Shown piece after piece: positions 23,313 through 36,610 of a stretch of 64,000 nucleotides of DNA. The position numbers and the translations under genes were made by a program. A model generated the notes under the pieces. The model worked only from the letters and a program-made list of their open reading frames with translations. It was not told the origin of the DNA and searched no databases. The stretch is taken from NCBI GenBank assembly GCA_028285755.1, contig JANQOQ010000014.1:372001-436000 (forward strand), in the 5' to 3' direction. The stretch comes from Puniceicoccaceae bacterium (lineage in GTDB: Bacteria; Verrucomicrobiota; Verrucomicrobiia; Opitutales; JAFGAQ01). The stretch's first letter is position 1. Each line of letters starts with the position of its first letter.

Positions 23313-23578
23313 AAAAGGGGGGATTCAGTAATTATGGGTTAACATTTCAACTTAATCTAGCATTTGCAATCAATAGGGCATTAAAAATTGTGATATTTTG
23401 AGCATTTTTGTGGGTATATCTGTCCAAACCAATGTTTAGAGGGGAATTCGTGCTGTATCGGCTTGACTACTAGGAATCGCTGATATCAAGTGGGCTTTTA
23501 TTTGCCCGCAAACTTTCCGCTTTTTTTACAAGTTTAATGAGATGTTTCACTGTGTTTTTTGGATTCATGGATTTGATA
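23313..23578. other. Intergenic region between GH95 and the Tol-like operon
   Basis: A 266-bp AT-rich gap between divergent genes that should hold both promoters. GTGGGC at 23490-23495 and GCCCGC at 23504-23509 can form a short hairpin around an AU loop in the leader of the TPR gene. A stretch of seven T lies about 12 bp further on, so attenuation is conceivable. Nothing else was recognised. Confidence 0.4.
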
Positions 23579-26500
23579 ATGATTTTTTCTAAGAAATTTC
23601 GCTCACTTTTACTCGCATGCTGCATGCTTGCGTTTACAGGGCTTTCAATCAATGCACAAGAGAATGACCCTGCGATGGAGAGCTATTATGCTGCAAATGC
23701 ACTCTACAATAAGCGTTTGTTCGAGCTCGCTATTGATGAATATCGTTCATTCATCGCCCGTTATCCCCGGCATGAAAAAATACTCGACGCTAAATTCGGC
23801 CTGGCGCTTTCGCTTTATGACCTACAGCGTTATGCAGAGGCTGAGCGACTCTTTGAAGAGCTCGCTGCGAACCGCGAAAGTCCGCGCAAGGAACAGGTAC
23901 ACAACCTTTGGGGGCAGTGTTTGCTGATTTCCGGGCAATTTGCCAAGGCGGAGGCTGCTTTTCTATGGTCCGTAAATCGTGGTAAGGAGAGACTTTTTCT
24001 GGACTTGCCGGGACTGGGTGGAGAATACCAGGAAGCTCCCGAACTCTCGGCGACCGCAATACAGGATCTGGATCCTCTGGAAATTGCCCTCGTAGGATTG
24101 GTGGAAGCGCTTTTTCGCCAGCAAAAGTGGGAAGACGTGATCGAATACAGTGGTGAGTTCATTCGCCTGGTTCCTGAGGGTAGGTATGCTCCCCGTGTGC
24201 GGTTTTTGTCCGGGTTTGCTCACTATGAGGTGGAGCTTTATGAGAATGCCATTCCCATCCTGCAGGATATCCAGCTTTATGGGAAGAATTCGCCCTACTA
24301 CGAGCATGCCATCTACCTGCTGGCGGAGTGCCAGCGTGAGTTAGGGGTTCTTGATGATGCCGCACGCAACCACGAAGAAGTGGCGCGGGAGATTCGGGGA
24401 AGTTTTGCAGGCAATGCGCTCTTTCGCCTCGGGTTCATCCGCTTCACTCAGGGAGAGTTTGCAAAGGCAGCCACCGATTTTGAGGATCTGCGCATTTTGT
24501 TTCCGGGCAGCGATTTTTACAATGATGCGGGCATCTACCTGGGTCGCTCCTATTTGGGAACCGGCGAATACCAAAAAGCGCAGGAGCTTTTTGGTGAGCT
24601 GAGCTCGATTTCGGATACCTCGGCTGAGGCGACTATCTGGCTGGGCAGGACCTTCCTGAATCAGGAAAATTATCGCCAGGCAGTGGATGTGCTCAGGCCT
24701 GCGATTCGCCGTTTTAATAATGACCCATTGCTGAATCAGTTTGTATTTGAGTATGGTAATGCGCTTTTGGGTCTCGAGCAGTTTACGCAAGGAGCGGAAG
24801 TGTTCCAGCGCGTGGTGACTGAATTTGATGCCGATTACCTGACTCCGCAGGCGCTCCGTTTGCAGGCATTCTGCCTGATGAAAGCAGAGGACCATGTGGC
24901 CAGCCTGGACGCGTGTGATCAATTCCTGCAGGGATACTCGAATGACCCTTCTTACCGCGATGTAGCCTTCATGCGCGCGGAGAATATTTTCTTCCTCAAT
25001 CGTCTGGATGAGGCCACCCGTGCTTATGAGCAGTTTATCCCCTGGGAAAACCGCACCCAATACACGGACGAAGCCCGTTTTCGCATCATTCAGATTTATG
25101 CAGAGCAACAGCGATGGGGAGAAGCCCTGGATGAGATTTACGACTTGCGTGAAAATACAGATGTCAGCGATGAGTTCTTTGAGCAAATCGATTACATTGA
25201 AGGCCTGACCTATTTTAATCTGGATCGTTGGGATAATGCTGTTGAAGCGCTGGAGCGGTTTATTCGCGAGGACAGTAGCCGGCAAAATGCGGATATTGCC
25301 CAAATCAAGCTTGCCCAGGCCTACGAGTCCAAGCGCGAGGTGGACACTGCGAAACTGGTGCTCGAAGTGCTGATCAATGAAAACCCGAACAGCCAGTATC
25401 TCGATCAGGGGCTTGCTGAGATGGGGCGTCTGACTTACAACGATGGTGATTTGGACGCTGCACGCGTCTACTTTGACCGGGTCGCGACTGAGTTTCCTTC
25501 ATCCGCGTTTTTTCCGCAGGCTCAATATTACCTCGGTTGGATTTCACTGAACGAGAATGACAATTTGCGTGCGATCAGTTACTTTGACCGGGTCTCCCGA
25601 GACTTTCCCAATAATGAGCTTGCTCCTGACTCGCTCTATAAGAAAGGGTTGCTCTACATGGATCTTAGCCAGCCGGGTAATGGGCAGATTGCGCTTAAGA
25701 ACTTCATCGATATCTACCCGAATGATGAACGATTTGACCAGGCCTCTTTCCATTATGGGCGTGCCCTATCGCAACTGGAGCGCTACGGGGAGGCTAAAAC
25801 CATATTGGAAAGTTTGATTGGGCGCACCCGCGAGGAGGATCTTTCCGTTCGATCACTCTATGAGTTGGCTTGGGTGAACCAGGGTCTGGACGCGCCGGAA
25901 ACGGCTAAAGCGCGTTACGAAGATATCTTAAGGAATTTCCCGGATCACGACCTTGCGAAACGGGCTAACTTTGAGCTCGCTGAAATGGAATATCGGGACG
26001 AGAAATACGACTCGGCGATCGGCCGGCTCGACACGCTGCTGGCTTCCCGTATCGACAGGGACCTGCGTGAGAAAGTGATTAACCGTATGGGTTGGTCATT
26101 ACTGGGCAGAGGTCAGGAGCTGGCTGCTGCCGAGGCTTTCGAGCAATTGCTGCGTGATTTCCCGGAAACTGAGTTTTTTGCAATCGCCTCTTACCAGGCG
26201 GGTGAAATTCGCCTGGGGCGCAAGGAGTATCGTGATGCGCTGCCACTTTTTAGCCAGGCCCGGGTGGATGCGCTTGATCAGCGGGTGCGCCAGCAGGCGT
26301 GGCTGCGTGAAGCCGAAACCCACACCTTTCTCGCGCAATGGGAGCAGGCCGAGGCACTATTCTCTGAGTTCTTTACCCTGTATTCGACCACTGAATTTTC
26401 ACGTCGCTGTGTAATGTGGCTGGGGTGGTGCCAGGAAAATCTCGGTCGTTACGAACAGGCGATTGCCAATTACCGCATCGTGCTGCGGGGCCGCCAGCGC

Positions 26501-26791
26501 GATGAATTAGCCGCACGTAGTCAGTTTCAGCTGGGGCAGTGCCTTATGAAGATGAACGAGCTGGATCAAGCTGTGCGTGAACTGATCCTGGTTGACCTGA
26601 ATTTTGCATATCCTACCTGGAGCGCCCGTTCCATTTTGGAAATAGGACGTATACTCGACAAACAGGGTAGGGCACGCGAGGCGAATGATCGCTTTCGCGA
26701 AGTCATGCAAAAATATCCCAATACTGACGAAGCTGCACTCGCTGAGGACTTGCTCCAAGCGTCCGAAGTATCGGTGAGTGCTAACTTTTAA
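23579..26791 (+). CDS. Giant periplasmic TPR protein of a Tol/Ton-like operon
   Basis: A ~1070-residue secreted protein. A signal peptide (MIFSKKFRSLLLACCMLAF, cleavage near INA-QE) is followed by tetratricopeptide-like repeats to the end. Typical units are LYNKRLFELAIDEYRSFIAR, AEAERLFEELAANR and DLDAARVYFDRVATEFPSSA, often ending in FP/YP as in CpoB/YbgF and BamD. It is roughly four times the length of E. coli CpoB. It lies 15 bp upstream of the exbB-like gene and should act as a periplasmic scaffold for the motor. The ATG at 23579 is chosen because the basic-hydrophobic signal begins there; an in-frame start at 23537 is possible. Confidence 0.85.
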   Translation: MIFSKKFRSLLLACCMLAFTGLSINAQENDPAMESYYAANALYNKRLFELAIDEYRSFIARYPRHEKILDAKFGLALSLYDLQRYAEAERLFEELAANRESPRKEQVHNLWGQCLLISGQFAKAEAAFLWSVNRGKERLFLDLPGLGGEYQEAPELSATAIQDLDPLEIALVGLVEALFRQQKWEDVIEYSGEFIRLVPEGRYAPRVRFLSGFAHYEVELYENAIPILQDIQLYGKNSPYYEHAIYLLAECQRELGVLDDAARNHEEVAREIRGSFAGNALFRLGFIRFTQGEFAKAATDFEDLRILFPGSDFYNDAGIYLGRSYLGTGEYQKAQELFGELSSISDTSAEATIWLGRTFLNQENYRQAVDVLRPAIRRFNNDPLLNQFVFEYGNALLGLEQFTQGAEVFQRVVTEFDADYLTPQALRLQAFCLMKAEDHVASLDACDQFLQGYSNDPSYRDVAFMRAENIFFLNRLDEATRAYEQFIPWENRTQYTDEARFRIIQIYAEQQRWGEALDEIYDLRENTDVSDEFFEQIDYIEGLTYFNLDRWDNAVEALERFIREDSSRQNADIAQIKLAQAYESKREVDTAKLVLEVLINENPNSQYLDQGLAEMGRLTYNDGDLDAARVYFDRVATEFPSSAFFPQAQYYLGWISLNENDNLRAISYFDRVSRDFPNNELAPDSLYKKGLLYMDLSQPGNGQIALKNFIDIYPNDERFDQASFHYGRALSQLERYGEAKTILESLIGRTREEDLSVRSLYELAWVNQGLDAPETAKARYEDILRNFPDHDLAKRANFELAEMEYRDEKYDSAIGRLDTLLASRIDRDLREKVINRMGWSLLGRGQELAAAEAFEQLLRDFPETEFFAIASYQAGEIRLGRKEYRDALPLFSQARVDALDQRVRQQAWLREAETHTFLAQWEQAEALFSEFFTLYSTTEFSRRCVMWLGWCQENLGRYEQAIANYRIVLRGRQRDELAARSQFQLGQCLMKMNELDQAVRELILVDLNFAYPTWSARSILEIGRILDKQGRAREANDRFREVMQKYPNTDEAALAEDLLQASEVSVSANF

Positions 26792-26806: not shown

Positions 26807-27574
26807 ATGAAGATTCCTTCAAACGAAAACCGCAAGCGCATGTTTTGGTTCATCGCGGCTGGGTTTATGCTTTTGGCAACTCAGTCTTTGCTTGGCCAAA
26901 CTGTGGAAACTACCGAAACGGTCGAGCGTTCAGAAACGCTGATCTCCCTGCTCTTTAAGGGAGGTTTTGTGATGATACCGCTCGTGCTGTGTTCTTTTAT
27001 GGCCGTGGGGCTTACGATTGAGCGTTTTATCAGTCTGTCAGGCAAAACGATTGCGCCCGATTCTCTGGATGATGAGCTGGAAAAAGTGTTGGGCAGCAGC
27101 TCGCCTAACAAGGTAGCTGCGGGTGTTGAAGTCTGTGAGCAATCCAATGCTGTGGTTTCCAACATTTACCGGGCCGCGATTGATAACTGGGAAGCGGACA
27201 TTGAGGATGCGGATGATGCAATGAGTAACGCAGGGCGCATCCAGATCAAGAAGCTGCGACGCAGTATACGTTGGCTGCGCTTGATCGCAGGTATTTCGCC
27301 GCTGCTGGGACTGCTTGGGACCGTGGTGGGTATGATTCAGTCCTTCCAGACGGTTGCTTTGTCCAGTATGAGCATTGGTAAGGCGGAGCTGCTCGCTGAA
27401 GGTATTTATCAGGCGATGGTTACAACGGCTGCGGGCCTTTGTATTGCGATACCGACACTCGTCGCATTCTCCTATTTCAGTAATCAGATCGACCGTCGGG
27501 CAGAGCTCATAGAAACCAAAGGCAACGATTTTCTTACCAAGTATTTCCGCAATCGCTTTAAGTTAGAGGCCTGA
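26807..27574 (+). CDS. MotA/TolQ/ExbB proton channel protein
   Basis: A 255-residue protein. It has an extra N-terminal hydrophobic segment that looks like a cleavable signal (MFWFIAAGFMLLATQSLLG, then QTVE). Three membrane helices follow: the first near FVMIPLVLCSFMAVGLTIER, and the conserved pair GISPLLGLLGTVVGMIQSF and AMVTTAAGLCIAIPTLVAF. These match ExbB/TolQ stator subunits that convert the proton gradient into motion with ExbD/TolR. It is followed by the exbD-like gene after 4 bp. Confidence 0.95.
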   Translation: MKIPSNENRKRMFWFIAAGFMLLATQSLLGQTVETTETVERSETLISLLFKGGFVMIPLVLCSFMAVGLTIERFISLSGKTIAPDSLDDELEKVLGSSSPNKVAAGVEVCEQSNAVVSNIYRAAIDNWEADIEDADDAMSNAGRIQIKKLRRSIRWLRLIAGISPLLGLLGTVVGMIQSFQTVALSSMSIGKAELLAEGIYQAMVTTAAGLCIAIPTLVAFSYFSNQIDRRAELIETKGNDFLTKYFRNRFKLEA

Positions 27575-27578
27575 TTGA

Positions 27579-27995
27579 ATGAAAGTAGAGTCTGACGAAG
27601 AAATCGAAGAGTCTGAAAGCGGTGTCATTGATACTTCCGCTCTGGTGGATATCATGTTTCTGCTGATTATCTTCTTTCTGGTGGCATCTTCCTTTCACGA
27701 GGAAGAAACGGATATCGCTGTCAATCTGCCGGAGACGGATTTGAGCCTGAGTTCTGCAGTGCAGGTTCTGGTTATCAATGTGCGTGATGATGGCAGCTAC
27801 TTCGTGTCTGAACGGCGTATGGATATTGATGGCCTGCGTGAGGAGCTTATCCGGGTAGTCCAGCAAAATCCGGATCAGAAGGTACTGGTGCGCGGGGATC
27901 GTAATGCGCTGCACGGGAGAGTTGCAGAGGCGATAGCCGCATGCCGCCGGGTAGGCATCAATGAGGCCAATATCGGCTACATGACAACCTTGTAG
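27579..27995 (+). CDS. ExbD/TolR family motor protein
   Basis: A 138-residue protein. A short acidic cytoplasmic N-terminus is followed by one membrane helix, DTSALVDIMFLLIIFFLVAS. Asp24 in ALVDIMF is the proton-carrying residue of ExbD/TolR. The periplasmic domain (LVINVRDDGSYFVSERRMDI to the C-terminus) has the family fold with the VLVRGDRNA strand. It works with the ExbB-like channel encoded directly before it. The next gene, 26 bp on, carries the candidate energised partner. Confidence 0.95.
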   Translation: MKVESDEEIEESESGVIDTSALVDIMFLLIIFFLVASSFHEEETDIAVNLPETDLSLSSAVQVLVINVRDDGSYFVSERRMDIDGLREELIRVVQQNPDQKVLVRGDRNALHGRVAEAIAACRRVGINEANIGYMTTL

Positions 27996-28021: not shown

Positions 28022-30253
28022 ATGTTCATTTTTGGCAAAATAAAGCAGATTATCACGTTTATAATCAAGTCGCCGATCTTCCTGGTTTTGGCGGCGTTCA
28101 TTGCATTTGCCTTTGGAATGTTGTTCGGCATGGGCTACTTACGCTATTATGTGGACGGGGATTCCATCAACCGCCGCCACAATGTCGCGAACTTGACGCT
28201 TAATCTTTGGGAAAACCCCACGTTTCTAACGGGAGATCTCAATCTGATTAAGGGAAACCAGGAAGCTACGATTTCTGAAGACGGTTCCACCGTGATCATT
28301 TCGCGCATTTACTCGCGGGACAATTCTGACCTATTTATTGCTGAGAATGTGAACGGTGAATGGGCCAAGCCCAGTGCGCTCAGCGGTTTTATTAATACAG
28401 GCTATGATGAGCGTGGGCCGAGTCTCAGCCGCGATGGGAATTGGCTGCTGTTTCAATCCAACCGACCGGATACCCGAGGAGGATTTGACCTCTACATGTC
28501 ACGTCGGCTGGATGATCGCTGGTCGGAGCCCATCAATCTGGGAGATGTGATCAACTCGGAATTTGATGAGGGCTTCGCGGCGTTTTCTGCGGATAACCGG
28601 GAGATCTATTTTTCCAGCCGCCGCCCCAAGCCGGAAGGGGTAGGCCTCGTGCCGGGTGCCGAAGGCGATGAGGTGGATTGGGATATCTACCGCGCAAGGA
28701 TTGAAGGCCATCGCGGAGAAGGGGATAGCTGGGAACCCATTTTCAGCGAGCCCGAGTATATGAGAATTATTAATACCTATGCCAATGAGTTTCACGTGGC
28801 GATGCCGTCGCACGGGCTTTCCCTGTATTTTGTATCTGATCGTGAGGGGGGTATGGGCGGCCATGATATCTACATGAGCCGGTGGTTCGAGGGGCAATAC
28901 AGCCTCCCTGAAAATTTGGGTGAGCCGATTAATTCGAATAAGGACGAGCTCTATCCGACATTTGCCAATCGGGGCAGTAAGTTGCTCTACGTTTCCAATG
29001 TCTACAGCATTCACCCGCGTGCATTGAAGCTATACGAGAGTGCTTCCCGTGAGGTGCTTGCCAAAATCGACTATGAGCTGCTGCGCAATGTCTTACTCAT
29101 CATTTTAATGATTTGTGTTGCAGGCATCGCGATCCACTACCTGTTGAAATTCCTGTTGGATTCGGAGCTGAAGTTGCTACCGCGCTGCCTGATCGCCTCA
29201 TTCCTGCTGCACCTGATTCTTGCAGCACTCACAGGTTCTCTCATTCTTTCGTCGAAAATTGAGGAAACCGTAACCCAGAACCTGAATGAGATGACGGTCA
29301 ACCTCAACGCACTTGCGCAGGAGAGCATTTCAGTAGCCATTCGCGAGAGTGTTGCCGCTTTACCGCAGCTGCAATCACCCAATACGGTAGAGCAGGTACA
29401 GACAGAAATTCCCCTGCAGACGGAATCTCCCATCAATAACCGCGTTACGCCATTTCCCCAAACGGTGGCCGTCTCTCAAAATGTAGTGACCTCGCAAAAT
29501 TTTACCGAGGTCAGGCAGACAACGAGTCAAATCGCACGTGCTAATACGATGCAGCAAGTAGCCCAATTAAATTTCAGTAATTCGAATGCAGTGCTTGAGA
29601 GCCCGGAAGGCATCGTTCAGCAAGGGGATGGTGACCAGAACGATCCTGATTACCGGGAGCCCGAGCCCCGAACGATACCGGAACAGCCTCGATTTGAAAG
29701 CGAGCCTTTTGAGCCGATTGTAGCGATCGAAGGCACCTTCGAAGATACTTTGACCCCTGAAATTCAGTCCAGTTCCATTGCCCAGACTGCACGGAGTATG
29801 GTTTCGGGTGAACTTACTACCGAGCTGGTTCGCGGGGTGCGGGAGTCCAGTGTGCGCGAACGCGTGATTGATTTTTCAACCAGCTCCCCTACGAGCATCG
29901 CATTTGATCAAAACTACGGAGCGTTGGTATTTGAGACTGATTTTACCCTCGAAGTGATCGAGGAAGACGAGGAAGAGGAAACCATTGATGAGTTCATGGA
30001 GTTTGAAACCGAATTTGCAAATCGCGTTGACCATATTTTTGGATTTGATCGGGATTTTGAAGAATTAGTCAGAGTACAACCGACCGGGGAAATTGGTGAA
30101 GTCCAGGATTTTGAGCGTTTGCGGGAAATCGAAAAACGCGTGATTGACCCCAGCTTAGGCAGAGTAGGCGGTGAGATTGCGGATGGTGTAGAGCTTCTGG
30201 TGATGGGGGTAGATTCCGAGCTGGAGATTCCTGAGTATATGCTCGATGAGTAA
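28022..30253 (+). CDS. TolB-like PD40 propeller protein with a TolA/TonB-like membrane helix
   Basis: A 743-residue protein. TM1 is at 18-40. Residues ~60-335 are PD40-type propeller repeats (SRDGNWLLFQSNRPDTRGGF, ADNREIYFSSRR, GLSLYFVSDREGGMGGHDIY). TM2 is at ~354-377 and TM3 at ~387-410. TM3 reads CLIASFLLHLILAALTGSLI: Ser393 and His397 reproduce the S-x3-H motif of the TonB and TolA helices that engage ExbB-ExbD or TolQ-TolR. The C-terminal ~330 residues are low-complexity, Gln/Glu-rich and predicted periplasmic, without a classical TonB C-domain. It appears to combine TolB- and TolA-like roles in one chain. The topology and role are inferred. Confidence 0.7.
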   Translation: MFIFGKIKQIITFIIKSPIFLVLAAFIAFAFGMLFGMGYLRYYVDGDSINRRHNVANLTLNLWENPTFLTGDLNLIKGNQEATISEDGSTVIISRIYSRDNSDLFIAENVNGEWAKPSALSGFINTGYDERGPSLSRDGNWLLFQSNRPDTRGGFDLYMSRRLDDRWSEPINLGDVINSEFDEGFAAFSADNREIYFSSRRPKPEGVGLVPGAEGDEVDWDIYRARIEGHRGEGDSWEPIFSEPEYMRIINTYANEFHVAMPSHGLSLYFVSDREGGMGGHDIYMSRWFEGQYSLPENLGEPINSNKDELYPTFANRGSKLLYVSNVYSIHPRALKLYESASREVLAKIDYELLRNVLLIILMICVAGIAIHYLLKFLLDSELKLLPRCLIASFLLHLILAALTGSLILSSKIEETVTQNLNEMTVNLNALAQESISVAIRESVAALPQLQSPNTVEQVQTEIPLQTESPINNRVTPFPQTVAVSQNVVTSQNFTEVRQTTSQIARANTMQQVAQLNFSNSNAVLESPEGIVQQGDGDQNDPDYREPEPRTIPEQPRFESEPFEPIVAIEGTFEDTLTPEIQSSSIAQTARSMVSGELTTELVRGVRESSVRERVIDFSTSSPTSIAFDQNYGALVFETDFTLEVIEEDEEEETIDEFMEFETEFANRVDHIFGFDRDFEELVRVQPTGEIGEVQDFERLREIEKRVIDPSLGRVGGEIADGVELLVMGVDSELEIPEYMLDE

Positions 30254-31166
30254 TTGGATTACCCGCTTTTTCCCGATATTGGCGGTTGCTTTTTCGGTTA
30301 TTGCTTATTTCACGGCGGATTGGTTTTCCCAGTGGCGATCCAGCATCGTGCCGATGTTGATGGTGGTGATGCTGGGTATGGGGCTCACGCTCAAGGCATC
30401 GGATTTTCTGGATGTGTTGAAGAAGGCCTGGATCATTTTAATCGGGGTCGGTATTCAATACACAGTGATGCCTGCGGCTGCATTTTTCTTATCCTTAGGG
30501 CTTGGCCTCGAGAAAGAACTCCTTATTGGCATGGTTCTCGTGGGGGCAACTGCAGGGGGCACTGCATCCAATGTCATTTGCTACCTGGCAGGCGGATGGG
30601 TTGCCCTTTCGGTATCCATGACGCTCGTTTCCACATTGTTTGCGGCATTGCTAACTCCTTTCATAACTTGGCTCTATTTGGGAGAAGCTGTGAATGTGCC
30701 GGTTTCGGATATGATGCTGAGCATGGTGAAAATGATCGTTTTACCGCTAACGCTAGGCATTGTCGTGAATACGCTGTTTGAAAAGCAAGTGAGTAAATTA
30801 CGGGGTATTGCTCCTGTAATCAGCGTATTGGCGATCGTCTGGATCATCGCCATTGTCGTAGCCCTGAACGCATCAAGCCTACCATCGGTGGGTATCCTGC
30901 TGGCTGTAGCGGTGATCCTCCACAACGCCATCGGTATGCTTGCAGGTTATCTGGGGAGTCGTTTGTTGAATCAGAATGAACAAATTGCACGAACCGTTGC
31001 CATTGAAGTGGGAATGCAAAATTCCGGGCTCAGTGTTGCTCTGGCGACTCAATTTTTCACAACTTTATCCGCGTTGCCCGGTGCACTCTTCAGTATCTGG
31101 CACAATGTGTCGGGCTCTCTGGTGGCAAGCTGGTGGAGCCGCAGGATATCTGAGGATAAGCAGTAA
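30246..31166 (+). CDS. Bile acid:sodium symporter (BASS) family transporter
   Basis: A 306-residue protein with about nine to ten membrane helices. Family features are GATAGGTASNVICYLAGGWV (the crossover region near helix 4), MQNSGLSVALATQFF (helix 9), and an N-terminal SIVPMLMVVMLGMGLTLKAS. Members move bile acids, pantoate or other organic anions with Na+; the substrate here cannot be named. It overlaps the preceding propeller gene by 8 bp, so it is co-translated with the motor operon although no functional link is obvious. Confidence 0.9.
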   Translation: MSNWITRFFPILAVAFSVIAYFTADWFSQWRSSIVPMLMVVMLGMGLTLKASDFLDVLKKAWIILIGVGIQYTVMPAAAFFLSLGLGLEKELLIGMVLVGATAGGTASNVICYLAGGWVALSVSMTLVSTLFAALLTPFITWLYLGEAVNVPVSDMMLSMVKMIVLPLTLGIVVNTLFEKQVSKLRGIAPVISVLAIVWIIAIVVALNASSLPSVGILLAVAVILHNAIGMLAGYLGSRLLNQNEQIARTVAIEVGMQNSGLSVALATQFFTTLSALPGALFSIWHNVSGSLVASWWSRRISEDKQ

Positions 31167-31329
31167 TTACTCTAGCATTATGGGGAGAAAACCTATTCAG
31201 GCTGGAAGCTGAAGAGCGTCTATTTTGGGAGATTTGAAGTTTTTTTAAAGTATTTCTTGACGCGCTTATTAATTAAGATTGAATCTCAATATCATGAATT
31301 GGGCTTGCAAAAGCCAAGACTTAACAAAC
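31167..31329. other. Intergenic region before the siderophore-type receptor
   Basis: A 163-bp AT-rich gap. ATTGA-ATC-TCAAT around 31278-31290 is a small inverted repeat close to the start of the receptor gene. It is too short and divergent to be called a Fur box. No clear -35/-10 pair or terminator was seen. Confidence 0.3.
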
Positions 31330-33495
31330 ATGAAATTCGATCTATATCTGGAATTAAACTATGGGTTATTAACGCATCTGCTCCGAGCAGTGGGGCTGTC
31401 GCTAATGCTTGGGGGTCCCTTGACTTTTACGCAAGCTTCACAATCGCCCGGACAGGATAGTATTATGGAGCTGGACCCCTATTCAGTGGTCGGAAGATTT
31501 CTCTATACTGATCAGGTGAATGCGCTCAAATCGCCGACACCGGTCATCGACGTGCCGCAAAGTCTTTCGATATTTACCGCTGACCAGATGACCCTGCAGG
31601 GGTTTGTCAGTATCGGTGATATAGTGGATTATACACCGGGTATAAATACTTCTCAGGGTGAGGGACACCGGGATGCAATTGTATTTCGCGGCGTGCGCTC
31701 TACTGCTGATTTTTTTATCGATGGGGTACGTGATGACGTTCAGTACTACCGCTCACTTTACAATCTCGAGCAGGTGGAAATTCTACGGGGTCCCAACGCG
31801 CTCTTCTTTGGACGGGGTGGAACTGGAGGTGTTTTGAATCGTGTCACTAAAAAGGCGATGATTGGCGAGAATTTCACAGGATACCAGGCGAGTATCGACT
31901 CATTAGGTGAGTTCCATGTGCAAATCGATTCGAATGTCTCGGGCGATGATCATGCAGCTTTTCGAATAAATGCGCACTACGACAGCCTCGATAATCACCG
32001 TGATTTCTATGAAGGAGATCGTTTTGGCGTAAATCCTACTGCGAAATTCGAGCTGAGCCAGGCCACGCTTTTGGATGTATCCTATGAATATATCAATCAC
32101 GAGCGATTTATTGATCGGGGCATTCCCACAGGTGCAGACGGACGCCCGGTAGAAGCTTTCAGGGACATTGTTTTTGGGGATCCGGAGCTCAATGTCACAG
32201 AGCTGGAAGCACACTTGCTTCGTGCCAAACTCGACCATCGATTTGCTGATAATTTGAAAGGCCGCCTCAGTGCCTATTATGGTGATTTCGATAAGCTCTA
32301 TCAAAATTTCTATGCTTCCGGGTATAACCAGGCGACTACTCCAAATGTGGTTACCCTGGATGGTTATATAGATACCACACAACGGCAGAATTTAATCCTG
32401 TCCGCAGACTTGATTGGCGAGTTTGAGACGGGCGGTGTAAGCCACACGGTCGTCACGGGTGTGGAATTTATAGACACCGTGAATAATAACGACCGTTTTA
32501 ACCCTGTTTTTGATCAGACCCAGGATGACAATGAAAGATTTATCATCGAGCGACCACTCAATCTTAGAGGCGGTGTCGGAGTCAATGCGGACGGTTTAAC
32601 CACAACCAACGATTACACGATCGATCTGAATGACGACACCGAAGCCGACGTAAGCGTATTCTCCTTCTATATACAGGATGAAATTGCGATTACGGATGCA
32701 CTCGATGTAGTCGTAGGTGCCCGTTTCGACAGTTTCGACATTGAGGTCTTCAACGTGAAGGATAATGAAACCAGAGATCGGAAAGATGAGGAAATTTCGC
32801 CACGTTTGGGTTTGGTGTATAAACCTGCCGAGAATATCTCCATTTATGGCAGCTACAGTGAATCCTTTCTTCCACGCAGTGGTGAGCAGTTTGCAAGTAT
32901 CAACGGCAATAACAATCAACTGGATCCGAACACATTTACCAATCTGGAGGTTGGAGTTAAGTGGGATTTTTATGACAGGCTAAGTCTGACGACATCGATT
33001 TTTGAAATCGAGCAAAGTTCCCCGCAGGTTGCTGATAATGATCCATCCACACTCGATGTCATTGATTCGGAGACGACCGGATTTGAGGTGCAGTTACAGG
33101 GTAGAGTGACTGATGAATGGTTCATATCTGCAGGCTACAGCTATCTGGATGGAGAGCAGGTGAATCGTTCCGGTGCAACGGGATTACGCCCGCGTGAGTT
33201 GCCCGAGCACATGTTTTCGCTCTGGAACAACTATCAGGTGACGGATCAATTTGCAATTGGCCTGGGGCTCACTTATCAGGACGAGACTTTCATCAACAAT
33301 GGAAATACAGCAGTTCTCCCAAGTTATACCCGAGTAGATGCTGCCGCTTATTATGATCTCTCTGAGAAATTGCGCCTACAACTCAATATTGAGAATCTTA
33401 CGGATGAACTCTATTTCCCAAATGCACACAGCACCCATCAGGCTACGGTGGCGGCTCCTTTGAACGCTCGATTTACAATCATCGGGAGGTTCTAA
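31330..33495 (+). CDS. TonB-dependent siderophore-type receptor
   Basis: A ~721-residue outer-membrane receptor without an STN domain. After a signal segment (LLRAVGLSLMLGGPLTFTQA) it has a TonB-box-like MELDPYSVVGRF. The plug follows (VIDVPQSLSIFTADQM, then ILRGPNALFFGRGGTGGVLN) and then a 22-strand barrel ending in a C-terminal aromatic (NARFTIIGRF). The plug motifs match the ferric-siderophore receptor group. No sigma/FecR pair or siderophore synthesis gene is adjacent, so the ligand is probably a scavenged xenosiderophore. The ATG at 31330 is preferred; an ATG at 31294 and a TTG at 31279 are alternatives. Confidence 0.88.
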   Translation: MKFDLYLELNYGLLTHLLRAVGLSLMLGGPLTFTQASQSPGQDSIMELDPYSVVGRFLYTDQVNALKSPTPVIDVPQSLSIFTADQMTLQGFVSIGDIVDYTPGINTSQGEGHRDAIVFRGVRSTADFFIDGVRDDVQYYRSLYNLEQVEILRGPNALFFGRGGTGGVLNRVTKKAMIGENFTGYQASIDSLGEFHVQIDSNVSGDDHAAFRINAHYDSLDNHRDFYEGDRFGVNPTAKFELSQATLLDVSYEYINHERFIDRGIPTGADGRPVEAFRDIVFGDPELNVTELEAHLLRAKLDHRFADNLKGRLSAYYGDFDKLYQNFYASGYNQATTPNVVTLDGYIDTTQRQNLILSADLIGEFETGGVSHTVVTGVEFIDTVNNNDRFNPVFDQTQDDNERFIIERPLNLRGGVGVNADGLTTTNDYTIDLNDDTEADVSVFSFYIQDEIAITDALDVVVGARFDSFDIEVFNVKDNETRDRKDEEISPRLGLVYKPAENISIYGSYSESFLPRSGEQFASINGNNNQLDPNTFTNLEVGVKWDFYDRLSLTTSIFEIEQSSPQVADNDPSTLDVIDSETTGFEVQLQGRVTDEWFISAGYSYLDGEQVNRSGATGLRPRELPEHMFSLWNNYQVTDQFAIGLGLTYQDETFINNGNTAVLPSYTRVDAAAYYDLSEKLRLQLNIENLTDELYFPNAHSTHQATVAAPLNARFTIIGRF

Positions 33496-35024: not shown

Positions 35025-35579
35025 ATGAGCAAAACTTTAAAACCACCCAATGATGAGCTTGTTCATGATAAATGGTTTGAAAACGAAGTGAGGTGTCATG
35101 AACCCCTTGCTCGGGCATGGCTACTTTCTCAGTCATTGAGTAGTGGGGATATAGATGAGATTTTGCAGGACGCGTATTTAAAGATTTGTGAGGCCCGTAA
35201 GGCGGTCGAAATTAAGTCACCTAAAGCTTATCTAATGGCAACGGTGAGGAACAATGTGTACATGCGTTTAAGAAGGGAAAAGATTGTGCAAAACGTTTTT
35301 ATCTCGGATATGGACACATCCTACCTGTTTGAATCGGATGATGATATCGCACGGAATGTTGAGCGATCTGAAGAGCTTGAGTTGTTAACTCGAGCCATAC
35401 AGCTCATACCCAAGCGATGCCGTAGGGTATTGACTCTAATGAAGATATATGGAATGTCTCAAAAACAGGTAGCTGCAGAATTGGGAATTTCCGTAAACAC
35501 CGTTGAATGCCAGTCGGCAAGAGGGATGAGGCGTCTGAGTAGATTTTTTGAACGATACAAGAAGGAAACGGGTAGATGA
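35025..35579 (+). CDS. ECF sigma factor, FecI-like (module 1)
   Basis: A 184-residue sigma-70 family protein with regions 2 and 4 only. Region 2 includes GDIDEILQDAYLKICEAR and SPKAYLMATVRNNVYMRLRR. Region 4 includes LIPKRCRRVLTLMKIYGMSQ followed by an HTH, QVAAELGISVNTVE. It should be held by the FecR-type protein encoded next, with an ATGA overlap, and released when the STN receptor of this module is occupied. Its target promoter could not be read. Confidence 0.93.
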   Translation: MSKTLKPPNDELVHDKWFENEVRCHEPLARAWLLSQSLSSGDIDEILQDAYLKICEARKAVEIKSPKAYLMATVRNNVYMRLRREKIVQNVFISDMDTSYLFESDDDIARNVERSEELELLTRAIQLIPKRCRRVLTLMKIYGMSQKQVAAELGISVNTVECQSARGMRRLSRFFERYKKETGR

Positions 35580-36610
35580 GTGGGGAAGATTCACAGCATA
35601 AAGTAAATCTGGAGACCATTGATAAGCAGGCAAGCCATTGGTTTATGCGTATCCAAAGAGGGCTGACCCCAACTGAGCAGGATGATTTATTTGATTGGGT
35701 AGCTGAAAACCCGTTACACGGGGAAAGGCTAAACCACTATAGGCGCAATTGGAAACGGCTCGATTTAATGGCAGACTGGAAACCCGAAAATGCGGATAGG
35801 CCGAATCCGGATTTATTGGAAAGCGATACCCGGAAAGTGATTTCTTTCTGGTGGTCTATACCCATTGCTGCCTGTTTGCTATTGGGTCTTGTTTTTTGGA
35901 GCTTTTTTGACTCCGGTTCAACGATGAACCAGGAAGTAGATCTTGTTTTTGCCGAGGAAAATCGTGCGCGGTTATTTGATGGTTCCGTAGTCAAGGGAGA
36001 TGAAAACGCAATTGTATATGCGGAATACACAAGCAACAGCCGTCGCTTACATATGGTTCAGGGGAAAGCATTTTTCGATGTGGTATACGATCCCGGCAGA
36101 CCCTTTATCGTAGAAGTGAATGGAATAGAAGTAGTAGCTGTAGGAACTGCATTTAATGTAAGTTTAGAAGACGATATATTAAGAGTTATCGTTTCGGAAG
36201 GAAGAGTAGAGCTGCGAAATGTTGAAGGGCAGGTTTCTGTGGAGGAAAGTAAAGATATCCAAACCAATCCAGTTCTGGAGAGAAATCAGGCTGCGACCAT
36301 ACAGCTCAAATCTGAGCGGAAAGATGTAGCCCTTGACTCACTTTCCGAAGATGAAGCTATGTCTGAAATTACCTGGCAACATGGCCCTCTTAAGCTCGAG
36401 GGGGAAACCCTGTCCTTTATTGTTAATGAGTTCAACCGATTGAACCTTACAAAAATGGTGATAGCGGATCCGAGCATTAGTGATATGTCTATCAGTGGGT
36501 CTTTCCGTTCGGATAATGTGGAAGGGTTTGCGCGAATACTGGATCTGGCATTTCAGGTTGAGTCCACTTATGTGTCCGAATTTGATGAATATCATTTGCG
36601 GGCCAAATAG
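35576..36610 (+). CDS. FecR-type anti-sigma / signal relay protein (module 1)
   Basis: A 344-residue protein with one membrane helix (ISFWWSIPIAACLLLGLVFW) near residue 90. The cytoplasmic part has the DUF4880-like sigma-binding segment QASHWFMRIQRGLTPTEQDD. The periplasmic part has the FecR fold (RLHMVQGKAFFDVVYDPGRP, EVNGIEVVAVGTAFNV) and a DUF4974-like tail that resembles an STN domain (LSFIVNEFNRLNLTKMVIAD). It relays receptor status to the sigma factor. It overlaps the sigma gene by 4 bp. Confidence 0.92.
   Translation: MSGEDSQHKVNLETIDKQASHWFMRIQRGLTPTEQDDLFDWVAENPLHGERLNHYRRNWKRLDLMADWKPENADRPNPDLLESDTRKVISFWWSIPIAACLLLGLVFWSFFDSGSTMNQEVDLVFAEENRARLFDGSVVKGDENAIVYAEYTSNSRRLHMVQGKAFFDVVYDPGRPFIVEVNGIEVVAVGTAFNVSLEDDILRVIVSEGRVELRNVEGQVSVEESKDIQTNPVLERNQAATIQLKSERKDVALDSLSEDEAMSEITWQHGPLKLEGETLSFIVNEFNRLNLTKMVIADPSISDMSISGSFRSDNVEGFARILDLAFQVESTYVSEFDEYHLRAK

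Follow-up and report, generated by a model that had tools for sequence, protein, structure and literature searches.

The window, the whole 64,000-nucleotide stretch of DNA analysed here, contains a cluster of forward-strand genes for a TPR-repeat protein, an ExbB/TolQ-type and an ExbD/TolR-type motor subunit, and a 743-residue propeller-bearing protein (Table 1), which we call the transducer after the role proposed for it below. The transducer ORF lies at the coordinates given by an earlier, sequence-only reading of this DNA, with the ExbB and ExbD genes just upstream as that reading described, and the only Pfam match in the transducer is to PD40 repeats (E = 6e-22), in agreement with the propeller which that reading had placed at about residues 60-335. 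Hydropathy revealed three membrane helices (about residues 19-37, 349-367 and 390-408), as did the AlphaFold2 (AF2) model (18-44, 351-380 and 385-423). The sequence-only reading had counted two: the helix bearing S393 is real, but the count was wrong, having omitted TM1, which is strong by both methods and lies ahead of the propeller. Positive-inside bias lends modest support to the proposed topology, in which the propeller and tail would both be periplasmic.

Table 1. Features of the transducer cluster, with positions in the window
Feature	Position	Strand	Evidence
TPR-repeat protein, 1084 aa, N-terminal signal-like segment, first cluster gene	23537..26791	+	Pfam TPR_6, E 1e-57
ExbB/TolQ-type motor subunit	26807..27574	+	Pfam MotA_ExbB, E 1e-27
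ExbD/TolR-type motor subunit, proton-carrying Asp D24	27579..27995	+	Pfam ExbD, E 2e-24
Propeller-bearing putative transducer, 743 aa	28022..30253	+	ORF call, Pfam, homologue searches
TM1, residues about 18-44	28073..28153	+	Hydropathy, AF2 helix 18-44
PD40 beta-propeller, residues 57-347	28190..29062	+	Pfam PD40, AF2, Foldseek, VIA-align 2
TM2, residues 351-380	29072..29161	+	Hydropathy, AF2
TM3, putative motor helix, residues about 385-411	29174..29254	+	Hydropathy, alignment, AF2
S393	29198..29200	+	Ser 31/37, Ala 5/37
H397, invariant	29210..29212	+	37/37
D-box/motor-box-like motif M424-T-V-N-L-N-A430, then invariant L431	29291..29311	+	Alternating hydrophobic pattern, PMC10907165 definition
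Putative periplasmic tail, residues 447-743, acidic, predicted disordered, no Pfam domain	29360..30250	+	AF2, Pfam, composition
C-terminal motif D731-SELEIPE-738, short-tail class	30212..30235	+	Alignments

Downstream, a gene for a transporter of the PanS-like/bile-acid-symporter family (30246-31166) shares 8 bases with the end of the transducer ORF and is not apparent beside the clusters of close relatives. It is followed by a gene resembling those for TonB-dependent siderophore receptors (31279-33495) and by an apparent sigma-factor and FecR-like pair (35025-36610), judged from the translations only. The receptor was considered as a target of the transducer and set aside, as no common receptor-like gene is apparent beside close relatives' clusters.

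We searched 273 genomes of the same order, 388 of the phylum, and two further sets chosen around distant members (137 and 288 genomes) for proteins sharing the putative motor helix. This revealed a family of 37 members (the window's included) from 32 genomes and 16 families, all in the window's phylum; most members share just 26-37% identity with the window protein. When the GTDB species collection was scanned with a single protein and poor patterns, one Bacteroidetes PD40 protein was the only return, matches in a plasmid tblastn search were confined to the PD40 domain and came mostly from OmpA-family proteins, and a profile search against PDB sequences gave no match.

The gene order that the sequence-only reading had pointed to in the window recurs across this family. 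ExbB and ExbD genes directly adjoin the transducer in every one of the 33 members whose flanks are long enough (the other 4 of the 37 are cut off by contig ends), and a TPR gene occurs in the same cluster in 29 of the 33, with the 4 exceptions forming one family, f80. Where a genome carries two transducers, each has a motor beside it as far as the contigs allow this to be seen. The window genome itself contains ten ExbB-type loci and 18 TonB_C matches; a TonB_C protein follows two of its other ExbB-ExbD clusters by direct scan, and further clusters have, by coordinate, TonB_C matches beside them. The window cluster therefore represents a dedicated motor alongside ordinary Ton systems. The same genome carries another TPR-ExbB-ExbD cluster (L146, C15:684500-692500), after which a DUF4214/Big_7 protein and an M48 peptidase stand in place of a TonB. 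At L035 (15380-17854) and L048 (2-1927), a second motor cluster, with ExbB, two ExbD-like genes and a protein beginning IYISRNKEKFGPYT, is separated from the transducer gene by a few kilobases.

Conservation of ExbD D24 (at least 97% across 33 family ExbDs) and of ExbB T172 and T207 suggests that these motors are functional; S63, T172, T207 and P216 are each found in 33 of 33 family ExbBs. We take T172 and T207 to be the pore threonines, P216 to be equivalent to ExbB Pro190, and S63 to TolQ Ser28/ExbB Ser34, in the register of E. coli ExbB and TolQ. In E. coli structures, TolA His22/TonB His20 contacts TolQ Ser28/ExbB Ser34 on TM1, and the same His reaches a Pro on TM3 of TolQ/ExbB through a Trp (PMC12215075). 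Among 18 ExbBs outside the family in the same genome set, only 9 have Ser at the position equivalent to S63, versus all 33 in the family, a count to which shared ancestry of the family ExbBs adds. In the family, Val or Leu mostly takes the place of the Trp, so the family's contact network is not identical to that of TolQ/ExbB.

The third helix of the window transducer, LLPRCLIASFLLHLILAALTGSL, contains S393-x3-H397 in a setting (RCLIASFLLH) that matches RAIIISAVLH of TolA, whose structurally resolved helix is KLKRAIIISAVLHVILFAALIWSSF (PMC12215075); Arg, Ser and His have identical spacing in the two. Across the family, His is universal (37 of 37), while the position four residues earlier is held by Ser in 31 members, by Ala in 5 (L093-L096 and L098) and by Lys in 1 (L138, which has a local deletion in TM3). 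The strict Ser/His pair is thus not universal, and only its His withstood the alignment of homologues, which agrees with a published account in which Ton and Tol activity depends essentially on the His (PMC12215075). In a 25-sequence alignment, V345, H397 and L431 (full-length numbering) were the only invariant columns after the propeller. The remainder of the SHLS motif is out of register in the window, where T404 and I408 occupy the Leu-Ser positions, and TM3 does not carry the full motif of the TonB/TolA family. The f80 members (L093-L096) have Ala at the Ser position and also have no TPR gene adjoining the cluster.

A second motor-related element may follow the helix. In TonB, the strand 45-ISVTMVT-51, 25 residues past His20, is recruited by the ExbD dimer, and the published D-box pattern is an alternation of hydrophobic and hydrophilic residues (PMC10907165, PMC12215075). 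The window sequence MTVNLNAL begins ~27 residues past H397, compared with 25 in E. coli TonB, and MTVNLNA fits five of the seven published positions. Relatives have EMTINVN, EIAISID, EVAVDLD and similar sequences here, although the pattern is weaker in some (for example, EANLDTD in L035), and the residues that follow are strongly conserved (L431 in 31 of 31, A432 in 30 and E434 in 29). From this pattern and spacing, M424-A430 is probably a motor box, placed as is the ExbD-binding D-box of TonB.

The tail, counted as 332 residues, is acidic, as had been read from the sequence (net charge -46, with Asp+Glu at 20% and Gln at 7%), and AF2 pLDDT falls below 50 across residues 447-735. No convincing Pfam domain besides PD40 was found in 11 short-tail members, and no TonB_C or TolA C-terminal domain matched in them at Pfam E values up to 1; together with the probability of 0.1 that hhalign gave when the tail profile was compared with a TonB C-domain from the window genome, this bears out the earlier statement that a classical TonB C-domain is lacking. 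A cryptic folded C-domain was rejected after AF2 modelling of the C-terminal 120 residues of L093 with nine homologues gave helices only (pLDDT 54, pTM 0.21). Two tail motifs, NxxMESPxG and a C-terminal DSE[LM]E[IV]PE, are retained across families; the latter, as DSELEIPE, is invariant or nearly so in alignment A5 (10 members) and weaker in L099 and L102. It is the one hard clue, by conservation, to what the tail may contact. NxxMESPxG recurs in the short-tail class (window tail, 29285-30250; alignment A3, columns around 558-590).

Long relatives end instead in a toroid resembling squalene-hopene cyclases and prenyltransferases (PF13249, E = 1.4e-8 in L047 and below the cut-off in L035). Many operons of this toroid class also encode a sister protein, in which a squalene-cyclase-like toroid is inserted between the blades of a PD40 propeller and which has a membrane helix at or near its ends, without the His helix. 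Sister genes lie between ExbD and the transducer at L040 (5603-7960), L042 (10080-12422), L043 (8797-11184), L047 (8088-10514), L133, L136 and L138. At L137 the transducer gene, here ahead of ExbB-ExbD, forms a fusion with a second propeller-toroid protein; single genes joining the propeller-toroid sister protein and the transducer are found at L137 (4567-10206; 1,879 aa) and L139 (1-3530; incomplete).

In the AF2 model of the propeller (pLDDT mostly 80-92 across residues 60-345), the strands fall into five groups, which suggests five blades. Foldseek placed TolB first among PDB matches (E = 4.5e-11, TM-score by target 0.42), and structural re-alignment with VIA-align 2 placed five-bladed GH43/GH62 folds first (Z about 21, 3.2 Å over about 240 residues). 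The propeller of TolB has six blades. A common fold with TolB or with glycosidases shows no function. By sequence, the closest named families (NCBIfam) are the PorE and CHU_0125 OmpA proteins (E = 4e-33), and PorE likewise pairs a TPR with a propeller; the PorE-type match, however, scores 115 bits, far under the cut-offs of 600-620, and the window transducer has no OmpA domain by Pfam and carries a motor-type helix instead.

These comparisons bear on the proposal of the sequence-only reading that the protein joins the roles of TolB and TolA. Such a fused Tol protein would use the propeller for the job of TolB and TM3 with the tail for that of TolA, mobilizing a Pal-like lipoprotein and stabilizing the outer membrane. 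The PD40 fold, with TolB giving the best Foldseek PDB matches, a propeller probably periplasmic and tied to an ExbB/TolQ-type motor, the TolA-like helix and the resemblance of the upstream TPR gene to CpoB/YbgF are all in its favor, yet we regard it as very unlikely. TolB_N, the Rossmann domain of TolB, is absent by Pfam from all 11 short-tail members scanned, the model has five blades rather than six, and the propeller would be membrane-anchored on both sides. Similar PD40 propellers occur in PorE/OmpA-type proteins, which are the nearest by sequence. Nothing points to Pal binding: no Pal/OmpA gene was seen in the window cluster, and the cluster maps of relatives have no further gene in common. 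Because TolB_N is absent, the model is five-bladed and the nearest sequences are PorE and CHU_0125, we do not accept the TolB and TolA combination. A search of seven genomes for TolB_N gave nothing at E = 1e-3 in six of them, the window genome among these, a result that is not firm for a divergent TolB.

The Ser/His helix could also have arisen by chance, or be a trait of the lineage, in a scaffold protein that makes no motor contact, since S-x3-H does occur in unrelated hydrophobic segments (8 of 494, or 1.6%, from 424 unrelated proteins in the same loci, with any His in 41, or 8%). The motif exceeds chance, and conservation is a stronger test than segment frequency: with His in every member across 16 families and ExbB-ExbD adjacent in every case with enough flank, we find this explanation barely credible. 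The sister propeller proteins of the same operons provide a negative control inside the family, as they end at a TM2-like helix and those inspected have no S-x3-H helix. Less improbable, though still unlikely, is that the protein binds the motor through TM3 without carrying force, as an anchor, assembly factor or regulator that localizes or gates ExbB-ExbD while others, such as the TPR protein, do the mechanical work. The propeller and the tail could be docking modules, and the tail is disordered, with no known receptor-binding domain. What counts against such a role is the retention of the D-box-like strand beside the motor helix and of a defined terminal element, DSELEIPE or toroid, past a long linker, as in a tether under load.

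We consider it likely, from these sequence features, their conservation and the gene order, that the transducer serves a dedicated ExbB-ExbD motor as its force- or energy-transducing subunit, TonB/TolA-like in action and different in build. That it would be the energized partner of the upstream ExbB/ExbD pair, as the sequence-only reading had proposed, is well supported by the universal His, the spacing of the D-box-like motif, the constant adjacency, the motor residues and the ExbB Ser. For topology, motor contact, force transmission and target, we propose that TM1 would anchor the N-terminus, the PD40 propeller would lie in the periplasm, TM2 would return the chain to the cytoplasm, and TM3 would cross from inside to outside, in the same direction as the TonB/TolA helix. 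H397, with S393, could then dock at S63 on TM1 of ExbB, and the periplasmic ExbD dimer could recruit the strand M424-A430. Proton flow through ExbB/ExbD would move ExbD and so pull on or reorient the flexible acidic tail, thereby loading it, and the DSELEIPE end would hold a partner in the envelope; given that nearly every cluster encodes it, the ~1,050-aa TPR protein is the first candidate, as partner or as relay. In long relatives, an alpha/alpha toroid would replace DSELEIPE at the tail terminus. For the propeller, docking or sensing beside the motor is the most likely role.

A non-TonB transducer driven by ExbBD is a kind of protein already proposed, and the new part is the architecture with its two interchangeable ends. 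The closest precedent is the class of vWA-domain force transducers from the PVC group proposed in 2025, which have an SHLS helix, a motor box and TPR-tolQ-tolR-tolR neighbors (Williams-Jones et al. 2025, PMC12204202); more such systems are expected to be found (same reference). The window family shares with these an SHLS-type helix, a predicted motor box, a disordered linker, TPR-tolQ-tolR neighbors, the PVC group and the lack of a TonB/TolA C-domain. It is a distinct variant, with three TM helices, a PD40 propeller before the motor helix, and a DSELEIPE or alpha/alpha toroid end, and with no Pfam VWA match in 11 short-tail members and two long relatives. Unlike the tolR pair of the vWA systems, the window has TPR-ExbB and a single ExbD, and no second ExbD-like gene lies directly beside the transducer in the family cluster maps. 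Compared with TonB and TolA, the family likewise has a motor helix with the essential His (and usually Ser), a D-box-like strand, a probable flexible periplasmic linker and a dedicated ExbB-ExbD/TolQ-TolR pair, but it is polytopic, the motor helix coming third rather than as a single N-terminal TM, with an N-terminal propeller and no TonB_C or TolA C-domain. The main text of PMC12204202 mentions neither PD40 nor squalene, and its passages on propellers describe no propeller-bearing transducer. Across the open-access full texts searched, PD40 and ExbD came up together in a single paper, which its title and abstract place in bacteriocin work, and we found no description of a propeller-bearing ExbBD transducer in that library.

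To our knowledge, the accepted clients of ExbB-ExbD-type motors come from very few families. Whether the present one amounts to a separate class of proton-driven force transducers, with a periplasmic propeller before the motor helix and driving a trans-envelope process distinct from both TonB-dependent uptake and Tol-Pal, we judge to be evenly balanced; the same even judgment applies to its composition, in which one chassis of TPR superhelix, ExbB, ExbD, propeller, motor helix and D-box would take interchangeable ends, either a short peptide motif or an alpha/alpha toroid. H397, ExbB S63, the strand 424-430 and the C-terminal DSELEIPE offer testable residues, and the short-tail and toroid ends on one chassis are natural designs for asking which parts of TonB-like transduction are generic. 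A conserved operon that keeps its motor-coupling residues while swapping its output suggests that these motors power more than uptake and Tol-Pal.
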